In this document: positions 8,189 through 30,982 of the stretch, piece by piece
Numbering within the stretch: the stretch's first letter is position 1
Layout: every line of letters starts with the position of its first letter
Origin: Photobacterium profundum SS9
GTDB taxonomy: Bacteria; Pseudomonadota; Gammaproteobacteria; Enterobacterales; Vibrionaceae
Length of the DNA: 64,000 nt
Direction: 5' to 3'
Assembly: GCF_000196255.1 (NCBI RefSeq)
Contig: NC_006370.1
Location: 960,187-1,024,186, forward strand
The notes under the pieces: generated by a model
The model's input: only the letters and a program-made list of their open reading frames with translations
What the model was told of the DNA's origin: nothing
Database searches by the model: none
Program-made: the position numbers and the translations under genes

Positions 8189-8236
8189 TGGTGCCCCCTA
8201 CAAGAGTCGAACTTGTGGCCTTCCCCTTAGGAGGGG
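8189..8236. repeat. attL: duplicated 3' end of tRNA-Arg(CCT)
   Basis: These 48 bp match 30906-30953 with one difference (G at 8206, T at 30923). The right copy is the 3' part of the intact minus-strand tRNA-Arg, from the CCA end to the anticodon stem. The mismatch lies in the T loop (TTCGAA), which would harm a functional tRNA but not a relic. The 22,717-bp offset defines the island. Confidence 0.92.
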
Positions 8237-8407: not shown

Positions 8408-9748
8408 GTGCTAACAACAACACACATAAAATCCCTCAAGCCAAGAAAATCTGCCTACAGCGAGTGGGAAAACACAAGAGATAGAAAATCCGGCAGGCTA
8501 GGAGTTAAAGTACAGCCTTCGGGATCAAAGTCTTTCTACTTTCGATATTATAAAGATCTGAAACCAGTTTTTATCTTAATTGGAAAGTTTCCAGCCGTAT
8601 CCCTCAGTGATGCAAGAGAGAAAGCAAAGATATACGGTGCCATGTGGAGTGATGGTAAAGATCCAAAAATTGAGTTACAAGCTGAGCGAGAACGAATTGA
8701 ACAAGAAACGGTTAAGCTGAAAGCTCAACAAGAAGCTGAAAAAAGGCAGGGATCAGTTGGTCAACTATTGGATTCATATATCAATGAATTAGTGTTGAGG
8801 GAAAAATCTTCGTTCAAACGTGTAGGTAAAGCGTTTGAGGCAGATGTATACGGAGTCATAAGTAAAGATACGAAAGCGAAAGATATCACCCCACAGGACA
8901 TCTCAATTGTACTTTCAAAGATCATTAAGCGAGGAGCAGAAGTTCAAAGTAATAAGGTGCGATCTTACCTTCACGCAGCATTTAATTTTGGCTTGCGACA
9001 TGATTATGATCCAAAAAACTTGGGGCAAGAAGTTTTCTTTAACTTATCTTTCAACCCAGTGTCATCAGTACCGAAACAACTAAATGCTGAAAATGTCGGC
9101 GATAACTGGCTTAAAATGGATGAAGTACGTTATTTAGTAAATGCTGATTGTAGTGAATATTTTTCTGAAGAACATTTATTACTTTTAAAGTTATGCTTGT
9201 ATCTTGGCGGCCAAAGGCCGTTTGATTTAGCCAATAGCTATTGGAGTGCTGTAGACTTTGCTGAACGTACCTTTGAAATGAGTATGAGAGCATCAAAAAC
9301 AGATAAGCCTAACTTGATACCACTAACCGAAACAGCGATTAAGTTATTAAAGCTGTTGAGAAAAATCCATCCCCCAAAAATTGGTCAAGAATGCTTTTTG
9401 TTTCCTGCAAAGACAGAATCTGGTCACTTAGATACAAATCGATTTGGTAAAGCTGTTAAAAGGTTTTGTGACGATACGAAGTTCAAAAAATTTACCCCAC
9501 GAGATCTGCGTAGAACTTTCAAAACTCTTGCGGGAGCGTTGGAAGTCTCGAAAGACATCAGAGATCGCATTCAAAATCACGCTCTGAATGATGTGAGTTC
9601 TAAACACTATGATCGCTATGAGTACATTAAGGAGAAACGAGAAGCGTTAGAGTTGTGGGAAACGAGCATTAATGAATATGATGCAAGTAAAATCGCCAAT
9701 TTTAGCGAACTTGTTGATGATTCGAATGAGCAATCCAATAGCGCTTGA
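8408..9748 (+). CDS. int: Tyrosine recombinase (P4-type, DUF4102 integrase)
   Basis: A 446-residue site-specific recombinase, 172 bp from attL. The N-terminal arm-binding domain (DUF4102) shows SGRLGVKVQPSGSKSFYFRY and VSLSDAREKAK. A central SAM-like domain follows, then the catalytic domain: arginine I in LGGQRPFDLA (about residue 269), PRDLRRTFKTLAG (about 365-377, arginine II, with R in place of the common H), and the nucleophile region HYDRYEY (about 399-405). It presumably catalyses integration and excision at the tRNA-Arg 3' end. Orientation and position next to attL with an AlpA-like gene downstream match P4-like islands. It looks intact. Confidence 0.93.
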   Translation: MLTTTHIKSLKPRKSAYSEWENTRDRKSGRLGVKVQPSGSKSFYFRYYKDLKPVFILIGKFPAVSLSDAREKAKIYGAMWSDGKDPKIELQAERERIEQETVKLKAQQEAEKRQGSVGQLLDSYINELVLREKSSFKRVGKAFEADVYGVISKDTKAKDITPQDISIVLSKIIKRGAEVQSNKVRSYLHAAFNFGLRHDYDPKNLGQEVFFNLSFNPVSSVPKQLNAENVGDNWLKMDEVRYLVNADCSEYFSEEHLLLLKLCLYLGGQRPFDLANSYWSAVDFAERTFEMSMRASKTDKPNLIPLTETAIKLLKLLRKIHPPKIGQECFLFPAKTESGHLDTNRFGKAVKRFCDDTKFKKFTPRDLRRTFKTLAGALEVSKDIRDRIQNHALNDVSSKHYDRYEYIKEKREALELWETSINEYDASKIANFSELVDDSNEQSNSA

Positions 9749-9945
9749 TTGATTCATTCTTGCGAAGCAAGGGTAGTGTAGGGGGCGTCAATTTCTATGG
9801 TTTAGTGGTGAAATCAATCGTTATCAAAAAAAGTCAAATAATTTTACAAATATTTAATTTTTTGAATTGATGCGTGTTTTTTTGCTGTGCTATCTTATTC
9901 GACGTTAAAGGAATTCTTGCCTAAAACTACAATAAAGAGAATAAG

Positions 9946-10143
9946 ATGAATACAAATCAAGTGATACTTCGCCCCAAAGATTTATCCAAAAAATTAGGAA
10001 TCAGTCTAACAACAATTTGGCGCTGGAGAAAAAACAAATCACTACCTGAGCCTATATATTTCACTGAAAAAACAATCGGTTGGCATGAGTCTACAATTGA
10101 TTCTTGGCTGTCCGATAAGATGCTTACAGCAAGTCAAAAGTGA
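9946..10143 (+). CDS. AlpA-like DNA-binding regulator / excisionase
   Basis: A 65-residue protein of the AlpA/MerR-like winged-helix type: ILRPKDLSKKLGISLTTIWR is the recognition helix region, WRWRKNKSLPEPIYF the following turn, and GWHESTIDSWLSDK the closing helix. AlpA activates integrase or excision functions in P4-like and CP4-57 elements. ATAAAGAGAATAAG provides a plausible ribosome site. It is 197 bp behind the integrase gene on the same strand. Confidence 0.88.
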   Translation: MNTNQVILRPKDLSKKLGISLTTIWRWRKNKSLPEPIYFTEKTIGWHESTIDSWLSDKMLTASQK

Positions 10144-11267: not shown

Positions 11268-11960
11268 ATGGCGCAACCGTTAAAGATCCTTCACCTCAGC
11301 GATCTACACTTTAATACAGGAGTATGTGATTGGGTATTGCAGGGCGCTGATGCAGATATTATCTGTATTAGTGGCGACTTATTTGATGATAGCCGTCATT
11401 GCCGTTTAACTACTAAACAACAAATTGATTGGTATCTTCGTTGGCTTGACCAGATAACCGTACCCGTTTTTATCTGCTCTGGTAATCATGATGTGGAGGA
11501 AAATCTCTGTTTAGATGATGACTGGCTGTTAAATGATTTAACCGATCTAGATGAATTTACTGTCGACTTTCCTGAACCACCGATAAGGGTAAATTTGGTA
11601 TCGGAGTTATCATCAGATAATGTTTTTATTGATGGTAGTATCTCTGAATATAAAGGCTACAGGATAGGATGTGTCGGTTATGAAAGTCCGAATTTAAGGC
11701 CCTTCAAAGACTGTGATATCGTGTTACATCACGTCCCCCCAAGTAATACACCTGTAGCGAAACAAGGTGGTAGAGATTGGGGGTGTCATGAACTAAGAGC
11801 TGCGCTAGATTGTGGTGAGTTAGCGCCTAAAGTCTTGTTATGTGGGCACGTCCACAAGCCCCAAAAGTCTAAGGCGATTGTCAAAAGGACACAAGTGATT
11901 AACGGTGGTTCAAGCAATATAGAAAAACTTAATAATCAATCGCTAATTGTTTTAGTTTAA
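11268..11960 (+). CDS. Calcineurin-like metallophosphoesterase
   Basis: 230 residues, with the full set of metallophosphoesterase motifs in order: LHLSDLHF (residues 8-15, DxH), CISGDLFDD (GD), CSGNHDVEE (GNHD), VLHHVPPS (H) and LLCGHVHKPQ (GHxH). It should bind two metals and cleave a phosphodiester or phosphomonoester; substrate unknown. It is cytoplasmic, with no signal peptide. It is the last gene of a three-gene unit near the integrase end of the island, together with two unknown small proteins. A nuclease or nucleotide-phosphatase role in host defence is possible but only inferred from location. Confidence 0.88.
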   Translation: MAQPLKILHLSDLHFNTGVCDWVLQGADADIICISGDLFDDSRHCRLTTKQQIDWYLRWLDQITVPVFICSGNHDVEENLCLDDDWLLNDLTDLDEFTVDFPEPPIRVNLVSELSSDNVFIDGSISEYKGYRIGCVGYESPNLRPFKDCDIVLHHVPPSNTPVAKQGGRDWGCHELRAALDCGELAPKVLLCGHVHKPQKSKAIVKRTQVINGGSSNIEKLNNQSLIVLV

Positions 11961-12694
11961 CGAACGTTTCAGCTTTTGACATACTTTTTCTTATTTGAAC
12001 TAGCTAGTGATTAGTTGGTGCCGTAACTCATAAATGTCCCGAAATGATTTAGAGATGATCCATCTAAATCAGAATTGCCCCGAACCGTGTTAGCAGCATG
12101 GTGATTTGGTATGACACTTTAATACTTAGGAACGCTGTGAATTGGCAGAAAAATTGCTCTGAGTATGATTCTTTATTCCCTCTCCCACACATAGCGAAGA
12201 TTATTAGTTGAGTGTTCAATCTGGGAGCTGGTATGTTGGGACGACAAAGTCCCTCGGTAATTAGTCCATCAGTCTCCCTCGGTAATCACATCAGTACACA
12301 TAATGTTGTACTGATAAGGTATCAGAAGTGAAAACCTGAAATGGCTATGTTTCTTCTAAAATTTTCTGGTTTATTAAAATGGTTATTTTAATTTGTTTAT
12401 CATATAACTATTTTGGTTTTTATGACCCCTCTTTAGACCTTTGCCCGTATCGTTATAGTGAAGGCTTTAATAATAGTGGTAAACAAAAAACGCCCTCAAA
12501 GGCGATTTCAAAGGTATTACAATTAAATTTATCAAGCGCTACGCGCTTAACTAGTCAAACTTTCTCGCCCTTTTCTAAGTAGCTCTTGGCCAATATGTCA
12601 TTCGATATATTACCGTCAATCAAGTAAAATACCCCCAATAGCTCATTGCTTTCGCTCGTTTTTCGAACAGCTTACATTAAAAGAAGATAACTCA
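11961..12694. other. Non-coding stretch between the cassette and the restriction operon
   Basis: No credible gene; an open stretch at 12379-12582 lacks a ribosome site and protein-like composition. Small structures seen: CCCTCGGTAAT as a direct repeat at 12251-12261 and 12276-12286; an inverted repeat ATCAGTACA / TGTACTGAT at 12290-12298 and 12307-12315; and hairpins CGCCCTCAAAGGCG and AAGCGCTACGCGCTT at about 12490-12550. The end must hold the hsd promoter, but I cannot assign its elements. Confidence 0.5.
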
Positions 12695-12733
12695 ATGGAT
12701 CATACGGCTCATAACAAACTGGTTTCATTTATT
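12695..12733 (+). pseudogene. hsdM: First 13 codons of hsdM, cut off by an IS200-type element
   Basis: ATG 12695 opens MDHTAHNKLVSFI and the frame then enters the IS. Joining I (12731-12733) directly to the TGG codon at 13330 gives SFIWSIADDCLRDVYVRGKY, the normal beginning of HsdM proteins. AAAAGAAGATAACTCA before the ATG provides a weak ribosome site. Confidence 0.85.
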
Positions 12734-13329
12734 CGTCACCTAAAAGGTTAAAACCACCGACTTTAGTCGGTCAGCTTCAGCTATGATATTTTACGGTCAT
12801 CGATGATGTTGGAGCATGATTATGGATTATAGATATGGAAGTCATACAGTCTTCAAAATTCAGTACCATTTCGTTTTTGTAACGAAGTATCGTTATCAAG
12901 TTTTGACTGGTGATGTTGGCTTGAAAGCTCGAGAGCTAATCAGGCAAACATGTCATGCTTTTGAGATTGATATTTTGAAGGGGGTAATCAGTAAAGATCA
13001 TGTTCACTTGTTAGCTTCTGCACCACCCAATATGGCACCTAGCGAAATAATGCGAAGGATTAAAGGCCGTACATCGGCTAAGTTGTTCGAGAGTTATCCT
13101 GATTTAAAGAAGAAATACTGGGGACGTCATTTTTGGGCTAGAGGCTACTTTTGTGTGACATCTGGTGACCTAACGGAAGAAATGATAAAGGAATACCTTG
13201 ATCATCACTTTGAGCCCAAGGCTGAAGATAACTTCAGGACAGAAGGCTAACGAAAACGGGTCTTTGACCCGTATCCGGACTTTCAGTCCTTAATACTAAC
13301 CCACCTACTTTAGTAGGTGGTTGTTTAGT
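12734..13329 (+). mobile_element. IS200-type insertion sequence (tnpA only)
   Basis: About 596 bp. The left subterminal hairpin is ACCGAC-TTTA-GTCGGT (12756-12771). The right side has three short-loop hairpins: ACGGGTC/GACCCGT (13256-13272), GGACT/AGTCC (13277-13289) and CCACCTAC/GTAGGTGG (13301-13320). There are no terminal inverted repeats or target duplication, as expected for single-strand transposition. The ends were set from the reconstruction of hsdM; with T residues on both sides they are certain to a base or two only. No tnpB is present. Confidence 0.85.
12816..13250 (+). CDS. tnpA: IS200 transposase TnpA (HUH Y1 family)
   Basis: 144 residues, normal length for the family. The metal-binding HUH pair is DHVHLL (His62, His64), FHFVFVTK-like YHFVFVTKYR is the first strand, FWARGYF precedes the C-terminal helix, and the nucleophile is Tyr127 in EEMIKEYLDHH. 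It cuts and joins single-stranded ends at hairpins. All catalytic residues are present, so the element may still be active. ATG 12822 is an alternative start. It is transcribed in the same direction as the hsd operon. Confidence 0.93.
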   Translation: MIMDYRYGSHTVFKIQYHFVFVTKYRYQVLTGDVGLKARELIRQTCHAFEIDILKGVISKDHVHLLASAPPNMAPSEIMRRIKGRTSAKLFESYPDLKKKYWGRHFWARGYFCVTSGDLTEEMIKEYLDHHFEPKAEDNFRTEG

Positions 13330-15702
13330 TGGTCTATCGCAGATGACTGCCTTCGAGATGTTTACGTGCGTGGTAAGTACCGTGACGTTATCTTGCCTAT
13401 GGTCGTATTGCGTCGTTTAGATTCCCTGTTAGAAGCTACAAAAAAAGAAATTCTAGAAGAAGTAGCATTTCAGCGTGATGAAATGGAATCGACTGAATTC
13501 GACAGCGCTCCACTAGAAGCCATTACAGGCTATGTGTTCTACAACACCAGTAAGTGGACGCTCAAACAAATTACAGCGACAGCATCAAATAACCAACAGA
13601 TCCTACTTGCTAACGTTGAAGAATATTTGAATGGCTTTAGCGATAACGTAAAAGAAATCATCAAGTGCTTTAAGCTCCAATCACAAATCCGTCACATGGC
13701 AGAAAAAGACATACTGCTTGATGTACTAGAAAAGTTCACTTCGCCAAACATCAACTTAACTCCAAATGTAGTCGAAGACCCTGATGGCAATAAGCTACCT
13801 GCACTGTCTAACTTAGGTATGGGTTATGTGTTTGAAGAGCTAATCCGTAAATTTAACGAAGATAATAATGAAGAAGCTGGTGAACACTTTACCCCTCGTG
13901 AAGTAATCGAGTTAATGACTCACCTTGTCTTTGACCCACTAAAAGGTAACCTACCACCCGTTATTACCCTGTATGATCCCGCATGCGGAAGTGGCGGTAT
14001 GCTGACAGAAGCACAGAATTTCATCAAAGATCCAGAAGGTAAAATTAAAGCAACAAGTGATGTTTATCTTTTTGGTAAAGAGATAAATGATGAGACCTAC
14101 GCCATCTGTAAATCAGACATGATGATCAAAGGTGATAACCCTGAAAACATCCGTGTAGGCTCAACACTTTCTACCGATGAATTCGCAGGTAAAACCTTCC
14201 ACTACTGTCTTTCGAATCCACCTTACGGTAAGAGCTGGGCTAGTGAGCAGAAGTACATCAAAGATGGCAAAGAAGTCATCGACTCTCGCTTTAAAGTTAA
14301 ATTAAAAGATTACTGGGGGGTTGAAGATACCTATGAAGCTATACCTCGCTCCAGTGACGGCCAGTTGCTGTTCTTAATGGAAATGGTCAGCAAAATGAAA
14401 TCCGTTAACAATGGAGTTGAAGGTTCTCGTATTGCTTCCGTTCATAATGGGTCAAGCTTGTTCACCGGAGATGCAGGTGGCGGTGAAAGTAACATCCGTC
14501 GTTACATCATTGAAAACGACATGCTAGAAGCTATTGTTCAACTACCAAATAACCTATTCTACAACACCGGTATCACGACTTATATCTGGCTATTGTCTAA
14601 CAACAAATTAGACAAGCGTAAAGGACAAGTACAGCTAATTGATGCCAATCCACTTTACCGCAAGCTACGTAAAAACCTTGGTGATAAAAACTGTGAGTTC
14701 TCACCTGAGCACATTCGTGAAATAACCAAAACTTACCTAGATATGACAAAAGTGGAACGTACACTCGATGAGAAAGGCGATCCGCAAGGTATTTCAACTA
14801 AAGTATTTGATAATGATGATTTTGGTTACTATAAGGTCAACATCGAGTGTCCTGATCGTCGTAATGCACAATTCAGCAGTGAACGTATTGAAACATTACG
14901 TTTTGATAAAGCTCTGCGTGAGCCAATGGAATATATCTATAATACCTATGGTGAAGATGCTTATAAAGCCGAAATACTGGCCAAGGAGAGCAAGGCCATA
15001 CTTGCTTGGTGTGAAGAAAAAGAAATCAGCCTCAATACCAAGAACCGTAATAAGCTGTTAGACGTTGCGACTTGGACAAGATTGGGTGATTTGATTGATA
15101 TCGCTAACACGCTGATGAAAGCTATTGGTACAGACATTTATAACGATTACAATCAATTCAAGGCAACTGTCGATGCCGAGTTAAAATCGCGTAAGATCAA
15201 ACTTTCTGCCCCAGAAAAAAATGCCATTTTAAATGCTGTCAGTTGGTATCACGAAAATGCAGAAAAAGTTATCAAGAAGAAGCTCAAACTAACTGGTAGC
15301 AAGCTTGACGAACTATTAACAAGCTGCGATTGCGATGAACATGAATTAGGTGATTTTGGTTATTACCTTATTGCAAAAGAAGACGGCGGTAAAGCTGGTG
15401 AATACATCACATATGAATCAAATTCAGATCTGCGTGATGCCGAATCTATTCCTCTCAAACAAAGTATCTACCAGTACTTCCTTGATGAAGTGAAGCCACA
15501 CGTTTCCGATTCATGGATCAACATCGATAGCACTAAAATTGGTTACGAGATCAGCTTTAACAAGCATTTCTACCAGCATAAGCCGCTTCGCTCAATAGAT
15601 GATGTAGCCAAAGACATCATTGCACTAGAGCAAAAAGCAGAAGGATTGATGGCAGAAATTCTTGGCATTTCAGTATCAACACTGACTCATGAGGATGCGT
15701 AA
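13321..15702 (+). CDS. hsdM: Type I restriction-modification M subunit, 5' end displaced by IS200
   Basis: The adenine-N6 methyltransferase subunit of a type I system. HsdM N-terminal helices begin WSIADDCLRDVYVRGKYRDV. The SAM-binding motif DPACGSGGMLTEA lies at about residues 219-231 and the catalytic NPPYG at about 299-303. At about 790 residues it is much longer than the 500-residue classical form; the extension is mostly helical. Only codons 1-13 are separated by the IS. The frame reopens inside the IS right end with TTG 13321 (TTG TTT AGT TGG), and TAGGTGG just ahead could act as a ribosome site but is too close. ATG 13399 would lose 26 residues. Stop and the hsdS start are two bases apart. 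Function depends on whether TTG is used or the IS excises. Confidence 0.88.
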   Translation: MFSWSIADDCLRDVYVRGKYRDVILPMVVLRRLDSLLEATKKEILEEVAFQRDEMESTEFDSAPLEAITGYVFYNTSKWTLKQITATASNNQQILLANVEEYLNGFSDNVKEIIKCFKLQSQIRHMAEKDILLDVLEKFTSPNINLTPNVVEDPDGNKLPALSNLGMGYVFEELIRKFNEDNNEEAGEHFTPREVIELMTHLVFDPLKGNLPPVITLYDPACGSGGMLTEAQNFIKDPEGKIKATSDVYLFGKEINDETYAICKSDMMIKGDNPENIRVGSTLSTDEFAGKTFHYCLSNPPYGKSWASEQKYIKDGKEVIDSRFKVKLKDYWGVEDTYEAIPRSSDGQLLFLMEMVSKMKSVNNGVEGSRIASVHNGSSLFTGDAGGGESNIRRYIIENDMLEAIVQLPNNLFYNTGITTYIWLLSNNKLDKRKGQVQLIDANPLYRKLRKNLGDKNCEFSPEHIREITKTYLDMTKVERTLDEKGDPQGISTKVFDNDDFGYYKVNIECPDRRNAQFSSERIETLRFDKALREPMEYIYNTYGEDAYKAEILAKESKAILAWCEEKEISLNTKNRNKLLDVATWTRLGDLIDIANTLMKAIGTDIYNDYNQFKATVDAELKSRKIKLSAPEKNAILNAVSWYHENAEKVIKKKLKLTGSKLDELLTSCDCDEHELGDFGYYLIAKEDGGKAGEYITYESNSDLRDAESIPLKQSIYQYFLDEVKPHVSDSWINIDSTKIGYEISFNKHFYQHKPLRSIDDVAKDIIALEQKAEGLMAEILGISVSTLTHEDA

Positions 15703-15704
15703 TC

Positions 15705-17018
15705 ATGAGTAGTGTAGCTATGATGCCCAAGTATGAGGCTTATAATGAGTCTGGTGTTGAATGGATTGGTAATATTCCAGAGCATTGGAACATTACGAAA
15801 GCTAAATATTTATTTAATGAAGTTGATGAACGTTCGGTCACGGGACACGAAGAGCTTTTGTCTGTATCTCATATTACAGGCGTGACTCCACGTTCTGAAA
15901 AAAATGTCTCAATGTTTATGGCAGAGGACTACTCTGGCTCTAAAACCTGTCAAGCGGATGATATTGTTTTCAATACCATGTGGGCATGGATGGGAGCATT
16001 AGGTGTTTCAGAACGATCTGGTATAGTAAGTCCTTCTTATGGTGTTTTTAGGCAAAAATTTACCAATACCTTTAATGCAAAGTATCTAGAATATTTACTT
16101 AAGACTCCCAAATATATCGAGCATTACAATAAGGTTTCAACAGGTCTTCACTCTTCGCGTTTGCGTTTTTATGGTCACATGTTTTTTGACATGAAAATGG
16201 GCTATCCCCATATTGACGAACAAAATGGCATCATCAAGTTTTTAGATAATAAAACTAATAAAATTGATGAAGCTGCTGCTATTAAAGAAAAGCAAATCTC
16301 CCTGCTCAAAGAGCGTAAGCAGATCATCATTCAACAAGCTGTGACTCGTGGTTTAAACCCTGATGTACCAATGCGAGATTCTGGTGTTGATTGGATTGGC
16401 GAGATTCCTGATCATTGGTGCTCAGAGCCTATAAAGTATTCATTAAAGGGAATTATCGATTGTGAGCATAAAACAGCACCATTTGTTGATAAAAAAGAGT
16501 TTTTTGTAGTTCGAACTTCAAATGTCAAGCAAGGCAAGCTTGTTATAGAAGATGCAAAATATACAAATGAGTATGGTTATAAAGAGTGGACATCAAGAGG
16601 GGTTCCGTTTCCAGGAGATATATTACTTACACGTGAGGCTCCCGCAGGTGAAGCATGTCTTGTTCCTGATGATAGAAAGTTGTGTTTGGGACAAAGAATG
16701 GTTTGGTTAAAAGTAGACAGAACTAGGTTACTACCTGAATTCGCATTGTCATTAATCTATTCTTCAGTTGTGAGAACCTATATAGATTTTCTTTCAGCTG
16801 GCTCTACTGTTCTTCATTTTAATATGGCAGATATTAAAAATATACCTGTCATACTTCCACCGATAAATGAACAAGCTATATTAGTCACACATATTAAAAA
16901 GCACTCAGATAAAATTGATAAAGCCATTGAACTGGAACAGCAACAGATATCCAAGCTGAAAGAATATAAATCAATCCTAATCAACAGTGCTGTCACAGGT
17001 AAAATAAAGGTGGTTTAA
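15705..17018 (+). CDS. hsdS: Type I restriction-modification specificity subunit
   Basis: 437 residues with the two-fold layout of HsdS. The half-repeats begin SGVEWIGNIPEHWNITKAKY (about residue 11) and SGVDWIGEIPDHW (about 226), each followed by a variable target-recognition domain. Conserved helical spacers are KEKQISLLKERKQIIIQQAV and EQQQISKLKEYKSILINSAV. The two recognition domains differ, so the target should be a bipartite asymmetric sequence. It starts two bases after the hsdM stop and ends six bases before the next gene. No truncation. Confidence 0.93.
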   Translation: MSSVAMMPKYEAYNESGVEWIGNIPEHWNITKAKYLFNEVDERSVTGHEELLSVSHITGVTPRSEKNVSMFMAEDYSGSKTCQADDIVFNTMWAWMGALGVSERSGIVSPSYGVFRQKFTNTFNAKYLEYLLKTPKYIEHYNKVSTGLHSSRLRFYGHMFFDMKMGYPHIDEQNGIIKFLDNKTNKIDEAAAIKEKQISLLKERKQIIIQQAVTRGLNPDVPMRDSGVDWIGEIPDHWCSEPIKYSLKGIIDCEHKTAPFVDKKEFFVVRTSNVKQGKLVIEDAKYTNEYGYKEWTSRGVPFPGDILLTREAPAGEACLVPDDRKLCLGQRMVWLKVDRTRLLPEFALSLIYSSVVRTYIDFLSAGSTVLHFNMADIKNIPVILPPINEQAILVTHIKKHSDKIDKAIELEQQQISKLKEYKSILINSAVTGKIKVV

Positions 17019-17023
17019 TTTCT

Positions 17024-18493
17024 ATGTCGCAAGGCGAGATTAACGAGTTACAAGTCGTAAGCTGTGATGTTGATGCGCTATTTAGCAATAGCGCAATTTC
17101 AACTAAAAATGGCATTCTTGAAGGTCAACTTTTCATTCCTGAATATCAGCGCCCCTATACATGGGGAGAAAAGGAAGTAAATCGCTTGGTTGGTGATTTG
17201 ATTGCTTACTTTTCGAGTGAGAAGCCACCAGAGCATCAATACTACCTTGGCAGCGTGATTATTCATCAAAGTATCGTTGATGGCGTTACTCGCCTTAACG
17301 TGATTGATGGACAGCAACGCCTAACAACCTTAGCGATTCTTGCCTATGTGCTTGGCTTACCCAACCAGCCAAGAATCACCTACACATCACCCAGTTCGCA
17401 GCAACAAATTGCTGCGAATGTTCAGTGGTTAAAAACGTGGTTAGCTGATAATCGCGAAATAGAACATTGTGACCTAAAAGCACTCATCAAACTTGAACAA
17501 ATCAATATCACCCTTGTGATCACTGAGAGTGAAGATGATGCTTACCGATTTTTTGAAACCCAAAATACAGGCGGTGTTCGTTTAAATGGTGCGGATATTA
17601 TTAAGGCGCATCATCTAAGAGCGATTGAAGAAAAATATCAAGATAGCTATGCAAAACAATGGGAATCGCTTGGTGAGTTGACGCCGCTTATTGATGCCAT
17701 CATGAAGGTGCGTTATTGGCAAGCGTTTCGATTTAAGTCTCTACCCACACACCGCAAACCACACTTAGTCAAAACTGAAATCGTTAAAGAGTTAGCTGAA
17801 TCTTGCTTAAATCAACCCGTTAACGTTGCTTACCGTACGGTTCAGGTAACAAAACCGCATACGGGAGTGGCAACCAATAGCCTATCGGGCATTCAAATTA
17901 ACAATATCGATAACGGCTATGCCATGCGTCAGCCACTCAATTCAGGTATTAACACTATCGACTATCTGAGCTACTTTGCTCAACTACAACACGATCTGTT
18001 ACTAAATGAACGAACGCTAGCTAACTTAGACGCTTTCTATGATTTCTATTTTAATGACGTAATTCAAAAATTAGATGGTACAGCCTACCTGAAAAAGTTG
18101 TTTGATAGCACTTTACTTCTGTATGTGAGCCAATTTGGTTTAACTCAACTTCATGAAGCCGCGCTATGGCTGTTTCGGATGGTGTACTCGCCTCGGGTAA
18201 TCAATCAGAAAACCGTTAAAGAAAGCTCGATTCAAAGCTTTGCAAGAGACAACAAGTTATTTGATTTCATTGTTCTAAGTTATACCCATGAGCAACTTAT
18301 CGGCTGGTTAAAAGAGTATTCCTATACCTTTGAAGGCTCAAACCTTGATGATAAAAAAGTCAAAGGACGCTTCATTATTAGGCTTGAGAATTTCTTCAAA
18401 CCCAAGACGTTTACGCGAGAAACCATTCAAACCAGTTTCGATAAACAACTGTGCCAAGCCATACAGAGCAAAGTGAATGAGGCTCAAACATGA
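17024..18493 (+). CDS. DUF262 (ParB/GmrS-like) protein without a nuclease domain
   Basis: 489 residues. The DUF262 signatures are FIPEYQRPYTWGEKEVNRL (about residue 38), NVIDGQQRLTTLAIL (about 95) and FETQNTGGVRLNGADIIKAH (about 180). DGQQR is the nucleotide-binding motif of the GmrS/ParB-like fold. The C-terminal half is helical and lacks the DUF1524 His-Asn-His motif, unlike the next protein. Its reading frame overlaps that gene by four bases (ATGA), implying coupled translation and a shared function. In GmrSD and SspE systems such domains drive nucleotide-dependent attack on modified phage DNA. Here it sits inside a type I operon, where its role is unproven. Confidence 0.85.
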   Translation: MSQGEINELQVVSCDVDALFSNSAISTKNGILEGQLFIPEYQRPYTWGEKEVNRLVGDLIAYFSSEKPPEHQYYLGSVIIHQSIVDGVTRLNVIDGQQRLTTLAILAYVLGLPNQPRITYTSPSSQQQIAANVQWLKTWLADNREIEHCDLKALIKLEQINITLVITESEDDAYRFFETQNTGGVRLNGADIIKAHHLRAIEEKYQDSYAKQWESLGELTPLIDAIMKVRYWQAFRFKSLPTHRKPHLVKTEIVKELAESCLNQPVNVAYRTVQVTKPHTGVATNSLSGIQINNIDNGYAMRQPLNSGINTIDYLSYFAQLQHDLLLNERTLANLDAFYDFYFNDVIQKLDGTAYLKKLFDSTLLLYVSQFGLTQLHEAALWLFRMVYSPRVINQKTVKESSIQSFARDNKLFDFIVLSYTHEQLIGWLKEYSYTFEGSNLDDKKVKGRFIIRLENFFKPKTFTRETIQTSFDKQLCQAIQSKVNEAQT

Positions 18494-20529
18494 ATCAAGT
18501 AAAAACCTATTTAAGAACGCCTCAAAGACTGGTAGATGAGCAGGCATTGTTTACTATTCCAAGCTACCAACGCCCTTTTGTATGGTCTGATGAGGCGATC
18601 AAAAGCCTGTTTGATGACCTTTTTTCAGCATTTGAGAGTAAGCAGCCACACTATTATGTTGGCACTATTTTAACGGCTAAACGACCTGGACAAGTTTTAG
18701 AGTTAATTGATGGGCAGCAACGAACCACCAGTTTGATGCTATTCGCCCTTGCCTGTAAAAAGAAAGAAATTAATACCCAACTCACAAAGCTAATTTGTGC
18801 GGAGCATCTGCAAGAAGAGACACTACGTTTAAGTTTCAAAATTAGAACACAAGTGGAAGCTTATCTCGGACATATGGCGGGGCTGGAAAACTATGAAAAC
18901 CAGTATCCAAGCGATACTGAGATCGAAAACAATCCTTACCTGAAACGCTTAGCCGCTGGACTAGCTACGTTTGAAAATTTACTCGACCAAATCCCTTTTC
19001 CAGATAGCACAGATCAAGATGATACAGCTCAAGGTAACAATAACCGACGTTCATCTTTAACAGATAAGCAAGCTGCCTTTGCTGACTACGTATATTCATC
19101 AATGCATATGGTTGAAAACCGTATCCCTACGTCAACGGATTTGAATCAGCTGTTTGCCACAATGAATAATTCAGGGGTACAGCTAGAGCAAGCAGACATC
19201 TTAAAGTCGTTACTACTAAAGAACATCGAGACAGATAAAGCGACTTACAATACCATCTGGCAAGCATGTGAAAACATGGATAACTACTTCGAGCGGAATG
19301 TTCGTAAGGTTTTCCCAAACACTAATTGGGCAAAAATGCAAAACAGTGATTTTGCTCAATATGATGCTGGTATCTTCAACTTTGATAAAGCAGACGAAGA
19401 TGAGAAACCGCTCCAAGGTATGACTATCGCTGAAATTATGGCTTCTGTAGATAATCGAAGTGGTAGCCAAGCGAATAATAAATATCGCGATGTTGAGGAA
19501 GAAACCAGAGAAGTCTACTGTCATTCCATCATTAGTTTTCCTCAGTTATTGCTGCACACATATCGTATCTATTTGCAGAAATATGGTTTCGATGACTTCG
19601 TTCCTCGCTTTCATTCAGATCAACTCATTGCGACTTTTGAACCTCTCTTGAATAGTGATGAAGAACAGATAAAACAGTTCTTCCAACTACTGTGGCAAGT
19701 GCGTTTTGCGTTTGATCTATGGATAGTAAAATGGGTAGAAAAGGCAGATGAGGTTGAAGAACAACTGCTCCTTTGTAGCGTGAACGGCTCTTACTCAAAC
19801 AATAACTATTATTTCAGCCGCAGCCCACTTGAACACTCAAATATTTCGATGCTCCAAATGGTGAGGCATTTCACTGCGGATAGAAATGCACAGTATTGGT
19901 TAACGCCTTTCTTAGGATGGCTAGTTGAAAATAAACCAACGCAAGTTGAAAGAGCACAAGTAGTCAAACAACTTGAGTCGATCGATAATCAACTTTCATT
20001 AGCTATGGCGGAACAAAAACCAGCGAGCTTTAAGTTGCTATCAAGTTCATTGGGTACATCAGAGGTTCAAGCTTCAAGCTTTATCAAAAGCTACCTATCT
20101 GAAAAGAATGGCGTTAATTTTAGACATTATTGGTTTCAAAAATTGGAATACCTCTTGTGGAAACACAACAGTGATTACTTGAAAGATATCGATCAAAACA
20201 AATTTATGCGCTATCGCATTATCTCAAGAAACTCCGTGGAACATGTCCATCCTCAAAACGATGAGTATGGTAAACAGCTAGAAGACGGTTATTTAGATAG
20301 CTTTGGCAACTTAGCTTTGCTGAATGTGGGCCAAAACTCGGCCTACAGTAACCAATCCGTAGGCAAAAAACGCGAAGATTTTAATGCAAAACCTCAGTAT
20401 GACTCCTTAAAACTCAAGCACATATATGATTTAATGCAAACAGAGAATGGTTTATGGGATGAATCAAAAATTCACTCACATCAGAACCAGATGATCACAT
20501 TATTAAAAGCACATTATTGTCAGTTGTAG
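18490..20529 (+). CDS. DUF262-DUF1524 protein (GmrSD/SspE-like HNH nuclease)
   Basis: 679 residues. The N-terminal DUF262 domain shows TIPSYQRPFVWSDEAIKSL, ELIDGQQRTTSLMLF and TMNNSGVQLEQADILKSLLL. The C-terminal DUF1524 domain carries the HNH-like catalytic set: NSVEHVHPQND, then SFGNLALLNVGQNSAYSN, then KKREDF. Both GmrS-like and GmrD-like functions are therefore on one chain, as in SspE and many single-chain type IV enzymes that cut glucosylated or phosphorothioated DNA. It starts within the end of the preceding DUF262 gene. The pair between hsdS and hsdR suggests a modification-dependent nuclease working beside the type I enzyme. Confidence 0.88.
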   Translation: MNQVKTYLRTPQRLVDEQALFTIPSYQRPFVWSDEAIKSLFDDLFSAFESKQPHYYVGTILTAKRPGQVLELIDGQQRTTSLMLFALACKKKEINTQLTKLICAEHLQEETLRLSFKIRTQVEAYLGHMAGLENYENQYPSDTEIENNPYLKRLAAGLATFENLLDQIPFPDSTDQDDTAQGNNNRRSSLTDKQAAFADYVYSSMHMVENRIPTSTDLNQLFATMNNSGVQLEQADILKSLLLKNIETDKATYNTIWQACENMDNYFERNVRKVFPNTNWAKMQNSDFAQYDAGIFNFDKADEDEKPLQGMTIAEIMASVDNRSGSQANNKYRDVEEETREVYCHSIISFPQLLLHTYRIYLQKYGFDDFVPRFHSDQLIATFEPLLNSDEEQIKQFFQLLWQVRFAFDLWIVKWVEKADEVEEQLLLCSVNGSYSNNNYYFSRSPLEHSNISMLQMVRHFTADRNAQYWLTPFLGWLVENKPTQVERAQVVKQLESIDNQLSLAMAEQKPASFKLLSSSLGTSEVQASSFIKSYLSEKNGVNFRHYWFQKLEYLLWKHNSDYLKDIDQNKFMRYRIISRNSVEHVHPQNDEYGKQLEDGYLDSFGNLALLNVGQNSAYSNQSVGKKREDFNAKPQYDSLKLKHIYDLMQTENGLWDESKIHSHQNQMITLLKAHYCQL

Positions 20530-20543
20530 GTTGGAGTAACAAC

Positions 20544-23500
20544 ATGGTTAGTCAAACGAATGAAATGGCACTTGAAGCCGCTATCGAAAAAGCACTGGTT
20601 GGTATTACTACTGAAGAACGTAAGCAAGGTATTGCAGAGCCTTTTGCCGTTTATAGCAAAGATCATGCGTACAGTATTGGCTTTCCGAGTGACTTTGACG
20701 CCAAATATGCAATTGATAAAACCTACTTCTGGCAATTCCTAGAAGATACTCAACCAACTGAGTTGGAAAAGCTGCAAAGTAATAGCCCGAATGATTGGCA
20801 GCAAAAAGTACTTGAGCGTTTTGACCGTCTTATCCGAAAACATGGTGTGCTGCACCTGCTGAAAAAGGGACTTGCTGTAGATGATGCTCACTTGATGTTG
20901 ATGTACCCAGCACCTTTAGCCAGTAGTTCAGAATCGGTAACTAAGAACTTTAATGCCAATATCTTTAGTGTGACTCGCCAAGTCCGTTACTCTCAAGCGA
21001 ATCCATTACAAGAAATCGATATGGTTATCTTCATTAATGGTATTGCACTGGTAACGTTAGAATTAAAAAATCATTGGACGGGGCAAACTGCGCGTTATCA
21101 TGGTCAGAAGCAATACTGTAACGACCGAGATCAAACGCAACCTTTACTCAACTTTGCTCGTTGTTTGGTTCACATGGCAGTGGACACAGAAGAAGTCTAC
21201 ATGACCACCAAATTAGCAGGCAAAAAAACCTTTTTCCTACCTTTTAACAAGGGTAATAATCTAGGGAAAGGAAACCCACCCAATGCTAATGGGCATAAGA
21301 CAGCTTACTTATGGCAAGAGGTTTTCAGCCGTGAAAGCTTAGCCAATATTATTCAGCACTTTGTTCGCCTAGACGGTACATCTAAAGATCGTTTGGAGAA
21401 AAGAACGCTTTTCTTCCCTCGTTATCAACAGATGGACGTCGTTCGTAAACTGATTGCGGATGCTGAAAAAAATGGAGTTGGACAAACTTATTTGATCCAA
21501 CATTCAGCAGGCTCTGGTAAATCTAACTCCATTACATGGGCAGCCTATCAGCTTATTGAAGCTTACCCTGGTAACGAAACTGCCGCCGGAGGAAAGAGCT
21601 TAGAACAACCACTTTTTGATTCTGTTATTGTGGTTACCGACCGTCGAATTCTAGATAAACAGCTAAGAGAAAACATTCAGCAGTTCTCTGAAGTTAAAAA
21701 CATTATTGTGCCAGCTAATAAATCATCAGAGCTGAAGAGCGCGCTAGAACAAGGCAAAAAAATCATCATTACAACGATTCAGAAGTTCCCATTTATTATT
21801 GATGGTATTTCGGATCTGAGTGATAAACGTTTTGCCGTTATTATCGATGAGGCACACAGTTCCCAGTCAGGTTCGGCACATGACAACATGAACCGAGCGA
21901 TGGGTAATGTTGAAGAAGAGGCTGATGCTCAAGATAAAATCCTTGAAGCAATGAAGTCACGTAAGATGAGAGGCAATGCTTCCTATTTAGCTTTCACAGC
22001 AACACCGAAAAATACCACGTTAGAAAAATTTGGTCAGAAGCAACCTGATGGCAGTTATAAGCCATTTCACTTGTATTCAATGAAACAAGCGATTGAAGAA
22101 GACTTCATTTTGGATGTATTGGCAAGCTACAATACCTACAAAAGCTATTATGAGATTGAAAAATCAATCAGTGAAAATCCGCTGTTTAACAGTAAAAAGG
22201 CACAAAAAAAGCTAAAAGGTTTTGTTGAACGCCAACAGCAGACTATCAACATCAAAGCGGAGATCATGCTTGATCACTTCATCCCTCATGTAGTGAACCC
22301 TAAGCTTCTAAAAGGAAAGGCGAAAGGGATGGTGGTTACTCAGAACATTGAAACTGCTATTCGTTATTACAAGGCTATCTGCCGCCAGTTAAAAGAGCGA
22401 GGCAACCCATTCAAAGTTATTCTTGCGTTTTCTGGAGAGAAAACGGTAGACGGCATTGAGTACACTGAATCTGAAGTTAACGGTTTTGCTGATACCGAAA
22501 CCAAAGACAAATTTGATACCGATGAATATCGTTTATTGATTGTTGCGAATAAATACTTAACAGGTTTTGATCAACCGAAGCTTTCCGCTATGTATGTAGA
22601 TAAAAAGCTTCAAGGAGTTTTGGCTGTTCAGGCATTATCTCGATTAAATCGTTCTGCGCAAAAATTGGATAAACGAACCGAAGATCTATTCATTCTCGAT
22701 TTCTTTAACTCAACCGATGATATCAAGAAGTCGTTTGATGATTTCTATACTTCAACCAGCCTGTCTGAAGCCACAGACGTCAATGTTCTGCACGAAATTA
22801 AAGATGGTTTGGATGACGTTGGTGTTTATGAATGGAGTGAGGTCGAGGAGTTCACAAAACGCTACTTTGATGGTGACGATGCACAAGAACTAAGCATTTT
22901 ACTGGATGTCGCGGTTAATCGCTTTGAGCATGAATTACAACTTGAACAAGATGACCAAGCTGATTTTAAGATCAAAGCAAAGCAATTCGTGAAGATATAC
23001 GGTCAAATGGCTTCCATAATGCCTTATGAAGTGGTGGTTTGGGAGAAACTGTACTGGTTCCTTAAGTTCCTTATTCCGAAGCTTAAAATCGAAGACACGG
23101 ACGCTGACCAAATTGATGAGTTGTTAGAATCAGTGGATCTCTCTTCTTATGGTTTGCAACGAGTGAAACTCAATCATACTATCGAGCTTGATGATTCTGA
23201 AACAGAAGTAGATCCACAGAATCCAAATGTACGTGGTTCTCATGGTGGTGATGAGGAGTTTGATCCCCTAGATGACATCATTCGTAACTTTAACGAACGT
23301 TTCTTTGATGGTTGGAGTGCAACCCCAGAAGAGCAAAAAGTGAAGTTCGTCAATATCCAAGCCAACATACAAGATCATCCCGACTTCGAAGAAAAATATA
23401 AGAACAACCCAGATCCACATACACGTGAGCTAGCTTTTGAAAAAATCTTTAATGAAGTGATGTTGAAGCGCAGGCGTGAAGATATGGAACTGTACAAATT

Positions 23501-23567
23501 ACTAGCTAAAGATGCTTCAATGAAGAGTTCTGTTATTCATAGCATGCAGAGCCGAATAGGGTATTGA
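20544..23567 (+). CDS. hsdR: Type I restriction endonuclease R subunit
   Basis: About 1007 residues from ATG 20544, which has TTGGAGTAACAAC ahead of it; an in-frame TTG at 20517 would overlap the previous gene and is less likely. Nuclease motif: EIDMVIF (D near residue 158) and VTLELKNHW (ExK near 172). Translocase motifs: HSAGSGKSNSITW (Walker A, about 322), VIIDEAHSSQSG (DEAH, about 434), YLAFTATPKN (motif III) and LSRLNRS (motif VI). It cleaves unmethylated DNA after ATP-driven translocation when assembled with HsdM and HsdS. With the methylase damaged, an active HsdR would be expected to be idle, because it needs M2S to bind DNA. Confidence 0.94.
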   Translation: MVSQTNEMALEAAIEKALVGITTEERKQGIAEPFAVYSKDHAYSIGFPSDFDAKYAIDKTYFWQFLEDTQPTELEKLQSNSPNDWQQKVLERFDRLIRKHGVLHLLKKGLAVDDAHLMLMYPAPLASSSESVTKNFNANIFSVTRQVRYSQANPLQEIDMVIFINGIALVTLELKNHWTGQTARYHGQKQYCNDRDQTQPLLNFARCLVHMAVDTEEVYMTTKLAGKKTFFLPFNKGNNLGKGNPPNANGHKTAYLWQEVFSRESLANIIQHFVRLDGTSKDRLEKRTLFFPRYQQMDVVRKLIADAEKNGVGQTYLIQHSAGSGKSNSITWAAYQLIEAYPGNETAAGGKSLEQPLFDSVIVVTDRRILDKQLRENIQQFSEVKNIIVPANKSSELKSALEQGKKIIITTIQKFPFIIDGISDLSDKRFAVIIDEAHSSQSGSAHDNMNRAMGNVEEEADAQDKILEAMKSRKMRGNASYLAFTATPKNTTLEKFGQKQPDGSYKPFHLYSMKQAIEEDFILDVLASYNTYKSYYEIEKSISENPLFNSKKAQKKLKGFVERQQQTINIKAEIMLDHFIPHVVNPKLLKGKAKGMVVTQNIETAIRYYKAICRQLKERGNPFKVILAFSGEKTVDGIEYTESEVNGFADTETKDKFDTDEYRLLIVANKYLTGFDQPKLSAMYVDKKLQGVLAVQALSRLNRSAQKLDKRTEDLFILDFFNSTDDIKKSFDDFYTSTSLSEATDVNVLHEIKDGLDDVGVYEWSEVEEFTKRYFDGDDAQELSILLDVAVNRFEHELQLEQDDQADFKIKAKQFVKIYGQMASIMPYEVVVWEKLYWFLKFLIPKLKIEDTDADQIDELLESVDLSSYGLQRVKLNHTIELDDSETEVDPQNPNVRGSHGGDEEFDPLDDIIRNFNERFFDGWSATPEEQKVKFVNIQANIQDHPDFEEKYKNNPDPHTRELAFEKIFNEVMLKRRREDMELYKLLAKDASMKSSVIHSMQSRIGY

Positions 23568-23574
23568 GTAGATG

Positions 23575-23653
23575 ATGAAAGGTTACATTTAGAAAATTGA
23601 TTTATATCTGAAATCTATCCATGCGGAGATGAAATCAATTAGTAACCTTTCAT
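23575..23653 (+). terminator. Long stem structure after hsdR
   Basis: ATGAAAGGTTAC (23575-23586) pairs with GTAACCTTTCAT (23642-23653). Just inside, AATTGATTT...ATCT pairs with AGAT...AAATCAATT. The result is an extended, interrupted stem of about 25 bp starting eight bases after the hsdR stop. It could terminate transcription in both directions or mark the edge of the operon module. Confidence 0.55.
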
Positions 23654-23698
23654 TATTTAACTGTATTTAATGATATTAACGCTCCAAATAATGAATTT

Positions 23699-23812
23699 TT
23701 TGACAACAAGAAGGCTTTGTTGCTGTTAAAAATAGCAACAACCCCTAGAACAATACACAATGTGTATTGCCTTTAAATCAGTTACTTATGAATTATTAGC
23801 TTTGTTGTCAAA
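23699..23812. repeat. Nested palindromic unit, MITE-like
   Basis: Outer inverted repeats TTTGACAACAA (23699-23709) and TTGTTGTCAAA (23802-23812) bound 114 bp. Inside are TTGTTGCT / AGCAACAA (23717-23741) and the palindrome CAATACAC-AAT-GTGTATTG (23751-23769). Three coaxial hairpins with matching terminal repeats look like a miniature element or a remnant of an IS end. Confidence 0.45.
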
Positions 23813-24708
23813 TAGAGATTTCTGAGTTATTTGTTATTAAAGCAGATAAAAACCTCTTTGAGTCAAGATTTGAGTGAGGCTAGAACAAGGGCTTCCCTGC
23901 TCCGCAGGAATTGAGCTGAGGCTTATTCACCTAGATGTTTAATTTTTTATTATGCAGATCGCAAATCACTTCAACATATAGAGGTACATCTCTATTACCA
24001 TTTATCCATCGAGAGACCTATTCTTTTCTAAGCCTCTTACTTGAAGCTGAGACTCAATTGTCAGGAACTCAGTTTATAGTGGCACAATGAATTTGGTCAC
24101 CTGATTGCAGGAGACATAAATATAAGCTGCGTACGCCTTACTCCATACCGCACCGCTACAAAGGTTCATATGCTTTAATACTGAGACGCTCATCTCTGTG
24201 TCAGAGTTAGAAGAATATCTAGTTAAGTTTCGTGAGAAGCGTTCCGAACAGCACAGCAGCCAGGTAATAAAGATGACTTCCAGGTGCAACCTAGAACAAG
24301 CGTAATCTAGCATTATTAATGACAGACGGGATCGAAAAGCATCAGCCCAGCTCGCTAAGCGCTCTGCTGGAAGTATTCGACAGAAATATCCGCCGACGCT
24401 TGGCTGTTCCTTATTCAGAAATTCCAGAAAAGCGCCATAATCGTTATCACTCAAGTGAGGATGATCTTATTGAATTGGTTGGGAAGGGAGGATTTATTGT
24501 GAAGCAAATGAGCTGTTCAAGCCTTTCAAAATTGCTAAAGGCAAAAGTAACTTGGTTTTGAACTGCTTATACTTCTAGTAAATTTATTATCCACTAGAGG
24601 TTATCTGAAACAACAATAACACATTTGACAAAAAACAGATTATTTAATATAAACAACTAGTTATGGTTGTTTATTTTATCTGAAACCTTTTTTTTGATCA
24701 AATTTTAT

Positions 24709-25113: not shown

Positions 25114-25692
25114 TTATATTGTTTTATTCCAATGGCGTTTAACCGTCGCTATACCAATATTTAAGTGTTTGGCTGCTGAGCTTTGTGACATATCACCCAA
25201 TTTACAACTTTGTACAGCTCTGGTTGTTTCAATGGCTTTAGGCCGTCCTAGTTTTTTGCCTTCACTTTTAGCTCGGGCCAAACCCTCTTGGGTTCTTTCT
25301 CGAATTCTATTGCGCTCGAATTCTGCAAATGCACTAAACATTTGAAGCATTAACTTGCCTTCGGAGCTACTGAGATCTGAAACTGGTAAATCAAGACAAA
25401 TAATCTTTATTCCCTTCGTCGATAGCAGCTCTATTGTTTGCTGCACATCAATGTTATCTCTTCCTAGGCGATCTAACTTTAAAACGATTAATGAATCGCC
25501 TTTTTCTAGTTTATGCTCAACTAGATTTTTGAACTGCTGGCGTTCAAGAGCACGAGTACTTCCCGATACCGTTTCTGAAATAACACGGCTATCTAGTACT
25601 TCATAACCTGTGCTTCGAATTGCTAGAATTTGGTTCTGTGTGTTTTGTTCTGTTGTCGAAACTCGACAATAGGCGAAGATTCTACCTAACAT
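25114..25692 (-). CDS. Serine recombinase (Tn3-type resolvase/invertase)
   Basis: 192 residues. The N-terminal catalytic domain has FAYCRVSTTEQNTQ with the nucleophile Ser12, VLKLDRLGRDNIDV (the conserved Arg-Leu-Gly-Arg) and MFSAFAEFERNRIRERTQEG at the long E helix. The C-terminal helix-turn-helix is DMSQSSAAKHLNIGIATVKR. Resolvase length is normal. Immediately upstream of the start (25702-25818) lies a set of repeats resembling a res site. No transposase gene is nearby, so it may be a leftover of a Tn3-like unit or a resolution system for the island. Confidence 0.93.
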   Translation of the reverse strand: MLGRIFAYCRVSTTEQNTQNQILAIRSTGYEVLDSRVISETVSGSTRALERQQFKNLVEHKLEKGDSLIVLKLDRLGRDNIDVQQTIELLSTKGIKIICLDLPVSDLSSSEGKLMLQMFSAFAEFERNRIRERTQEGLARAKSEGKKLGRPKAIETTRAVQSCKLGDMSQSSAAKHLNIGIATVKRHWNKTI

Positions 25693-30905: not shown

Positions 30906-30982
30906 TGGTGCCCCCTACAAGATTCGAACTTGTGGCCTTCCCCTTAGGAGGGGGACGCTCTATCCAGCTGAGCTAAGGGAGC
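30906..30982 (-). tRNA. tRNA-Arg (anticodon CCT), integration target
   Basis: A complete 77-nt cloverleaf on the minus strand. The acceptor GCTCCCT pairs with AGGGGGC, the D arm is GCTCAGCTGGATAGAGC, the anticodon loop CTCCTAA carries CCT, the T loop is TTCGAAT, and CCA is encoded at 30906-30908. Its 3' 48 bp (30906-30953) form attR and match 8189-8236. Confidence 0.97.

Follow-up and report, generated by a model that had tools for sequence, protein, structure and literature searches.

A type I restriction-modification operon of Photobacterium profundum SS9 includes two adjacent genes, located between hsdS and hsdR, that very likely encode, with a probability that we put at about 0.85, a TgvAB-like modification-dependent restriction system. 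As deduced from the sequence, the pair would be a cargo of the operon, itself lying on a tRNA-Arg island, and would act beside the type I enzyme. The genes are found in a stretch of 64,000 nucleotides, termed here the window (NCBI RefSeq assembly GCF_000196255.1, contig NC_006370.1, positions 960,187 to 1,024,186), whose + strand carries in order hsdM, hsdS, a gene for a DUF262-DUF7834 protein, a gene for a DUF262-DUF1524 protein and hsdR. An initial annotation had placed two DUF262 proteins between hsdS and hsdR; their coordinates and frames are right, and Pfam identifies the flanking products as HsdM, HsdS and HsdR.

The gene pair and its relation to TgvAB

The tgvA-like gene (17024..18493, + strand) begins after a gap of 5 nt behind hsdS and shares an ATGA at positions 18490-18493 with the tgvB-like gene (18490..20529, + strand), an overlap that had been correctly annotated and is read directly in the sequence. 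Pfam assigns to the first product a GmrSD_N/DUF262 domain (1.4e-30) and a carboxyl-terminal DUF7834 domain (6.2e-40), so that its earlier description as a DUF262-only protein was incomplete. The second product combines GmrSD_N (3.4e-31) with GmrSD_C/DUF1524 (1e-20), the latter being a His-Me nuclease domain with the residues H585, N607 and N616. Both proteins have the YQR motif, a DGQQR motif starting at residue 95 in the first and 74 in the second, and an FxxxN motif that reads FETQN and FATMN, respectively. When their profiles are compared, the two proteins align mainly across the DUF262 region (columns 38-266 of 492 in the first protein), meaning that most of the DUF7834 part has, at that sensitivity, no likeness to the nuclease protein. 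Neither protein is matched by NCBIfam, and PADLOC gives only partial matches to them, Orf5, HEC-06, SspE and mREase_IV being among the matches listed (25 of 31 and 25 of 29).

This organization corresponds to the one reported in 2024 for TgvAB, two genes between hsdS and hsdR on island VPI-2 of Vibrio cholerae, where VC1769 to VC1765 are hsdM, hsdS, tgvA (VC1767), tgvB (VC1766) and hsdR (PMC11411939). According to that study both TgvA and TgvB are required for protection, which is abolished by mutation of DGQQR in either protein and by the TgvB substitutions H571A or N602A, and the system stops phages with modified cytosines, Tevenvirinae being restricted (PMC11411939). A review citing a second study adds that T2 mutants escaping TgvAB had lost glucosylation (PMC12409362). 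Compared by published description, the window pair has the same two adjacent genes, a DUF262 protein followed by a DUF262-DUF1524 protein, and the same five-gene order. Each of its proteins carries YQR, DGQQR and FxxxN, and the second has an H..N..N nuclease whose spacing of 31 residues from H585 to N616 equals that from H571 to N602. The five-gene arrangement was thus known, and by the features that define TgvAB the window pair appears to be a divergent member of that type.

From the published work on TgvAB, BrxU and SspE we infer how such a pair would operate. The DUF262 domains of both proteins would bind and hydrolyse NTP and would jointly recognize DNA with bulky modified cytosines, a recognition that would in turn permit cleavage of the modified DNA by the His-Me domain of the second protein. 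The first protein would be indispensable without being a nuclease in its own right, its most likely role being that of a co-sensor or an assembly subunit. The complex would operate alongside the type I enzyme instead of by way of it, co-transcription providing shared expression and transfer. YQR and DGQQR are present in all 44 first and all 44 second proteins examined from the surveys described below, in keeping with a role for both NTPase sites, and the nuclease motif EHxxPQ is found in 43 of the 44 second proteins, the exception being the truncated protein of locus L128, which is included in the DGQQR count. One plasmid recorded as both L047 and L112 enters these counts twice; L081, whose gene order is reversed, is out of both, the single gene of L087 is out of the first, and L075, whose first gene is frame-broken, is left out of the first-protein count and alignments with its second protein retained. 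In L076, L077 and L078, which belong to the same family, the nuclease H and N fall exactly at positions 571 and 602, the catalytic residues published for VC1766, a coincidence suggesting that these loci are close to it.

The interrupted hsdM gene

The initial annotation presented the pair as part of one type I operon. The gene order bears this out, but the operon is not intact, since hsdM is split. Its severed 5' end occupies 12695..12733 (+ strand), where the ATG at 12695 reads MDHTAHNKLVSFI, resembling the amino terminus of 17 relatives. The first 13 residues are shared with small changes with 17 of 17 of them, following the pattern M, an acidic residue or N, H, two variable residues, HNKL, one variable residue and SFI. 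After about codon 13 the gene is interrupted by a 602-nt insert (12728..13329, + strand), and the frame resumes at WSIADD. The remainder of hsdM (13330..15702, + strand; N6_Mtase and HsdM_N in Pfam) has lost its native start. The start chosen by mechanical ORF calling is an in-frame TTG at 13321 that lies within the edge of the insert. Among relatives, hsdM is also found intact.

The insert is an IS200-type element, with a Y1 transposase (TnpA, 12816-13250; Y1_Tnp PF01797, 2.1e-42), many near-identical copies and fixed ends. It has 29 matches at 99-100% identity in the genome, its own copy included. In the 28 of 29 copies with readable edges the letters are identical starting at 12728 on one side and ending at 13329 on the other and vary outside these limits, with the sole exception of a T at 13330 found in 22 of the 28; the first 6 nt may correspond to a fixed target site. 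The published V. cholerae cluster offers a different case of insertion, that of IS256 in hsdS of strain DRC193A (PMC11411939).

The other type I genes of the window are open. hsdS (15705..17018, + strand) codes for the specificity subunit (Methylase_S in Pfam, 6.7e-13; Specificity_I in PADLOC, 5.3e-120), and hsdR (HSDR_N and SWI2/SNF2 in Pfam) probably occupies 20544..23567 (+ strand). The alignments of close relatives of HsdR begin at residues 8-10, mostly 10, of the longer frame opened by the TTG at 20517, which favours the ATG at 20544 as the probable start and therefore puts hsdR 14 nt behind the pair. A consensus scan of positions 12000-24500 found 22 promoter-like sites, against 31.7 expected, which is uninformative, and 17 terminator-like sites, against 9.4 expected, including one hairpin at 13301-13320 inside the inserted element.

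Because hsdM is interrupted by this multi-copy element, the type I system may be weak or off in the strain of the window, and the gene pair is possibly the only component of the operon that still functions, or at least the principal one. It had been proposed that a GmrSD-type pair attacking modified DNA complements the type I enzyme. The authors of the TgvAB study had themselves put forward such complementary cover, and restriction of modified DNA by two proteins that are both needed is published for TgvAB (PMC11411939); joint cover is doubtful in the window strain, where it may not operate. A more radical reading of the same insertion is that the whole operon is a decaying remnant in which the element within hsdM, with the loss of the native start, blocks expression so that neither the type I enzyme nor the pair works. 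We regard this as unlikely. hsdS, both genes of the pair and hsdR are open, have about the length of their relatives and keep their motifs intact, and IS200-type elements presumably need not block transcription.

Related systems and related loci

The DUF262 NTPase and DUF1524 nuclease of the second window protein are also those of GmrSD, BrxU and SspE. These are single-protein enzymes, unlike the window pair with its adjoining DUF262-DUF7834 protein. Nearer in organization is GrwAB, encoded on VSP-II of WASA V. cholerae and described as a sister system with a wider range than TgvAB (PMC12137116). Both are two-gene systems of GmrSD-like restriction, the need for both genes being a published feature of GrwAB. 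In its description, however, GrwA is the DUF1524 protein and is encoded first, while GrwB has a long and different carboxyl terminus, and the window genes come in the opposite order. These likenesses raise the question of whether the pair senses another mark than sugar-modified hydroxymethylcytosine, such as phosphorothioate, as SspE does, or 7-deazaguanine, as GrwAB does. SspE models match both proteins, SspE chains match the profiles of the pair, and the pair is divergent; but the best SspE matches span only the shared DUF262 amino terminus, and GrwAB, as published, differs in gene order and in partner. We hold sensing of such another mark to be distinctly improbable.

Several observations weigh against the TgvAB-like assignment. 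The window proteins share only 40-45% (first protein, n=7) and 43-45% (second protein, n=8) amino acid identity with the embedded relatives of the same type I lineage, and because of this low identity the substrate may differ; the wider range of GrwAB points the same way. Likeness to VC1767 and VC1766 comes from domains, motifs, gene order and spacing and not from direct alignment. The insertion in hsdM could reduce expression downstream. Finally, the embedded locus L075 with its frame-broken first gene indicates that a pair can decay in place.

To survey the context of the pair, the first protein was searched against 329 genomes of the family to which the window genome belongs (E <= 1e-15; starts mechanically chosen), 15-20 kb being fetched per locus and hsd genes called with profiles built for the survey, which may miss remote kinds. 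Matches were found at 25 places in 23 of the 329 genomes, counting L047 and L112, the same plasmid, once. Most are distant (18 of 25, with 25-40% identity over the matched stretch). The second gene follows the first directly in 25 of 25, with a gap of -23 to +2 nt, and this constant adjacency is not a matter of chance. hsdS and hsdM lie upstream on the same strand in 19 of the 25. The pair is embedded between hsdS and hsdR in 6 of these 19 and stands behind an operon ending in hsdM-hsdS in the other 13, with hsdR in front of the operon in 12 and none seen in L117. In L058, L111 and L075, 1.2-2.1 kb of other sequence separates hsdS from the pair. No type I genes were seen in the 15-20 kb fetched around the remaining 6 of 25. 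The link to type I genes is accordingly strong in the family but not obligatory, and this survey, which the initial annotation had proposed as a check, found that the pair is not mostly apart from type I genes in the family.

Wider draws gave looser associations. Among 394 genomes drawn from the order (E <= 1e-20), 9 other genomes match, 4 of them with the pair beside type I genes; the 5 without adjoining type I genes include L057 and L049, whose contigs end just upstream and just downstream, respectively. A draw of 369 genomes from the class gave 47 other matching genomes, of which 7 were fetched; one ends at a contig end, and 3 of the other 6 have the pair beside type I genes. Locus L064, truncated by a contig end, does not enter the context count. 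In the published census of 41,142 genomes the five-gene cluster was found 79 times, Shewanella, Acinetobacter and Pseudoalteromonas being among the hosts, and the pair by itself 1,341 times (PMC11411939). The pair most similar to that of the window is that of L005 (58% and 66% identity), with no hsd genes seen on its 5.9-kb contig. The one clear sign of movement comes from the free-standing pair of L110, which has no type I genes near it and shares 92% and 95% identity with the embedded L052 pair.

Within the same lineage of type I operons, HsdM of the window is 70-72% and HsdR 74-77% identical to those of the embedded relatives, HsdS being the most variable (28-55%). The larger divergence of the TgvA- and TgvB-like proteins can be due to faster evolution or to exchange. 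In the TgvAB tree the group of L046, L051 and L052 is unresolved, L046 and L051 coming together at 72/74. The tree of HsdM and HsdR, spoilt by two long outgroups, rejects a clade of L051 and L052 (p-AU 4.75e-05, in a test chosen after seeing the identities), and since the TgvAB tree lacks that clade as well, this reveals no conflict between the trees.

It had also been suggested that the first protein might regulate the nuclease or sense the methylation state. In a combined form of this reading, it would monitor the methylation laid down by the type I enzyme and keep the nuclease in check, the pair being a functional extension of that enzyme. The shared operon with short gaps or overlaps and the 19 of 25 family loci beside type I genes would fit, but we consider this highly improbable in view of the 6 of 25 family loci and 5 of 9 order loci without adjoining type I genes, the free-standing L110, the interrupted hsdM of the window and the published finding that the pair alone protects. 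In that study the V. cholerae cluster with HsdR K172A gave a similar pattern of protection, making the HsdR nuclease dispensable, and for several phages TgvAB alone protected 10- to 100-fold less well than the complete cluster did, a difference that the authors tentatively attribute to expression (PMC11411939). The escape of unglucosylated phages is likewise at odds with a sensor of type I methylation.

Searches beyond these genomes gave few close relatives. E. coli genomes searched with the pair DNA gave no match, and phage records gave one weak DUF262 match. The first protein is matched by 1,010 plasmid records, 909 of them from Klebsiella, nearly all weakly or partially, 3 covering at least 80% of it in one place; three of the records were read. 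The proteins of a pair on V. aerogenes plasmid pLMG19650 are identical to those of the pair in one family genome. Viral contigs gave at least 79 loci per scan; of the ten read, five different contigs carry an adjacent pair, the best being L129 (5893-9371; a contig of a viral collection) with 44% and 42% identity.

The hsdS-hsdR slot and the island

The content of the slot between hsdS and hsdR was compared at all 17 places with an HsdR at least 66% identical to that of the window (range 66-77%). Eight of them carry the pair there, six have other genes and three are empty. The pair is alone in the window, L076, L077 and L078 and is found together with a gene for a 387-aa protein in L051, L052 and L075, identified as DUF4268 by Pfam in L051, where it was checked. 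In L079 (9641-12884) it is accompanied by a reverse transcriptase gene, an AAA ATPase gene and a gene for a 222-aa protein, a cassette that we take to be retron-like. Among the slots without the pair, three (L073, L074, L080) have the gene for a 387-391-aa protein alone, L081 (8976-12880) has two other DUF262 genes in the GrwAB-like order with the DUF1524 gene first, L082, at a contig end with hsdS out of view, has a Fic gene and L086 a RhuM gene. In L083, L084 and L085 the gaps of about 140, 15 and 100 nt contain no gene-sized frame on the operon strand; L085 has instead a 487-aa gene between hsdM and hsdS (8499-9962). The 387-aa gene is found shortened to 187 aa, together with the pair, on E. 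coli plasmid pLAO4 (L046), and other E. coli records have DUF4268 annotated as frameshifted (L089) or intact (L090). In L049 (13056-19337) a cytidine-deaminase gene and a DUF4268 gene precede the pair, with no adjoining hsdS.

Accessory genes at this place have been described in other bacteria: RloF of Campylobacter, presented as a single DUF262 gene in contrast to the pair (PMC4619093), and DarTG2 of EPEC, a toxin-antitoxin pair, in connection with which the slot was termed a "potential recombination hotspot" (PMC12255303). Our survey, with different cargo on one backbone, supports the suggestion made there that defence genes gather in the hsdS-hsdR gap. One could go further and view this gap as a standing loading bay, in which a conserved backbone carries exchangeable second-layer defences (TgvAB-type, GrwAB-like, a reverse transcriptase-ATPase cassette, Fic, RhuM, DUF4268 or none), TgvAB being retained for the benefit that it brings by itself, as in the window with its interrupted methylase gene, and the insertion in hsdM serving as a switch that uncouples the cargo from the backbone. 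This extended scheme is speculative, and the chances that it holds appear slim.

The operon of the window sits on an island of ~22.7 kb (8189-30953) bounded by a 48-nt repeat, 47 of whose positions are identical, of the 3' part of tRNA-Arg(cct). The att-like copy at 8189..8236 marks the left end, and the tRNA-Arg gene itself (30906..30982, - strand; the other repeat copy being at 30906-30953) the right end, past which flagellar genes are found. A tyrosine integrase (8408..9748, + strand; Phage_integrase and Arm-DNA-bind_3) is encoded next to the left repeat. A calcineurin-like phosphoesterase is encoded at 11268-11960, upstream of the operon, and one is also found upstream of the L005 pair. 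A resolvase-type recombinase is encoded at 25114-25692, downstream of hsdR. Elsewhere in the source genome (6.40 Mb, three contigs), at C2:2071-2073 kb, lies a further pair that is only distantly similar to that of the window, with 24-27% identity (L058, 7800-19030), and that stands behind a different operon of the order hsdR-hsdM-hsdS with an AAA ATPase gene separating hsdS from the pair.

The family survey, the slot survey, the second pair and the insertion in hsdM go beyond published work. They extend TgvAB to what appears to be a divergent branch, in a genome that holds a further pair behind another type I operon. Since the insertion in hsdM may oblige the pair to function independently of its host operon, the strain provides a naturally occurring, direct test of whether the pair and the type I system are functionally joined.

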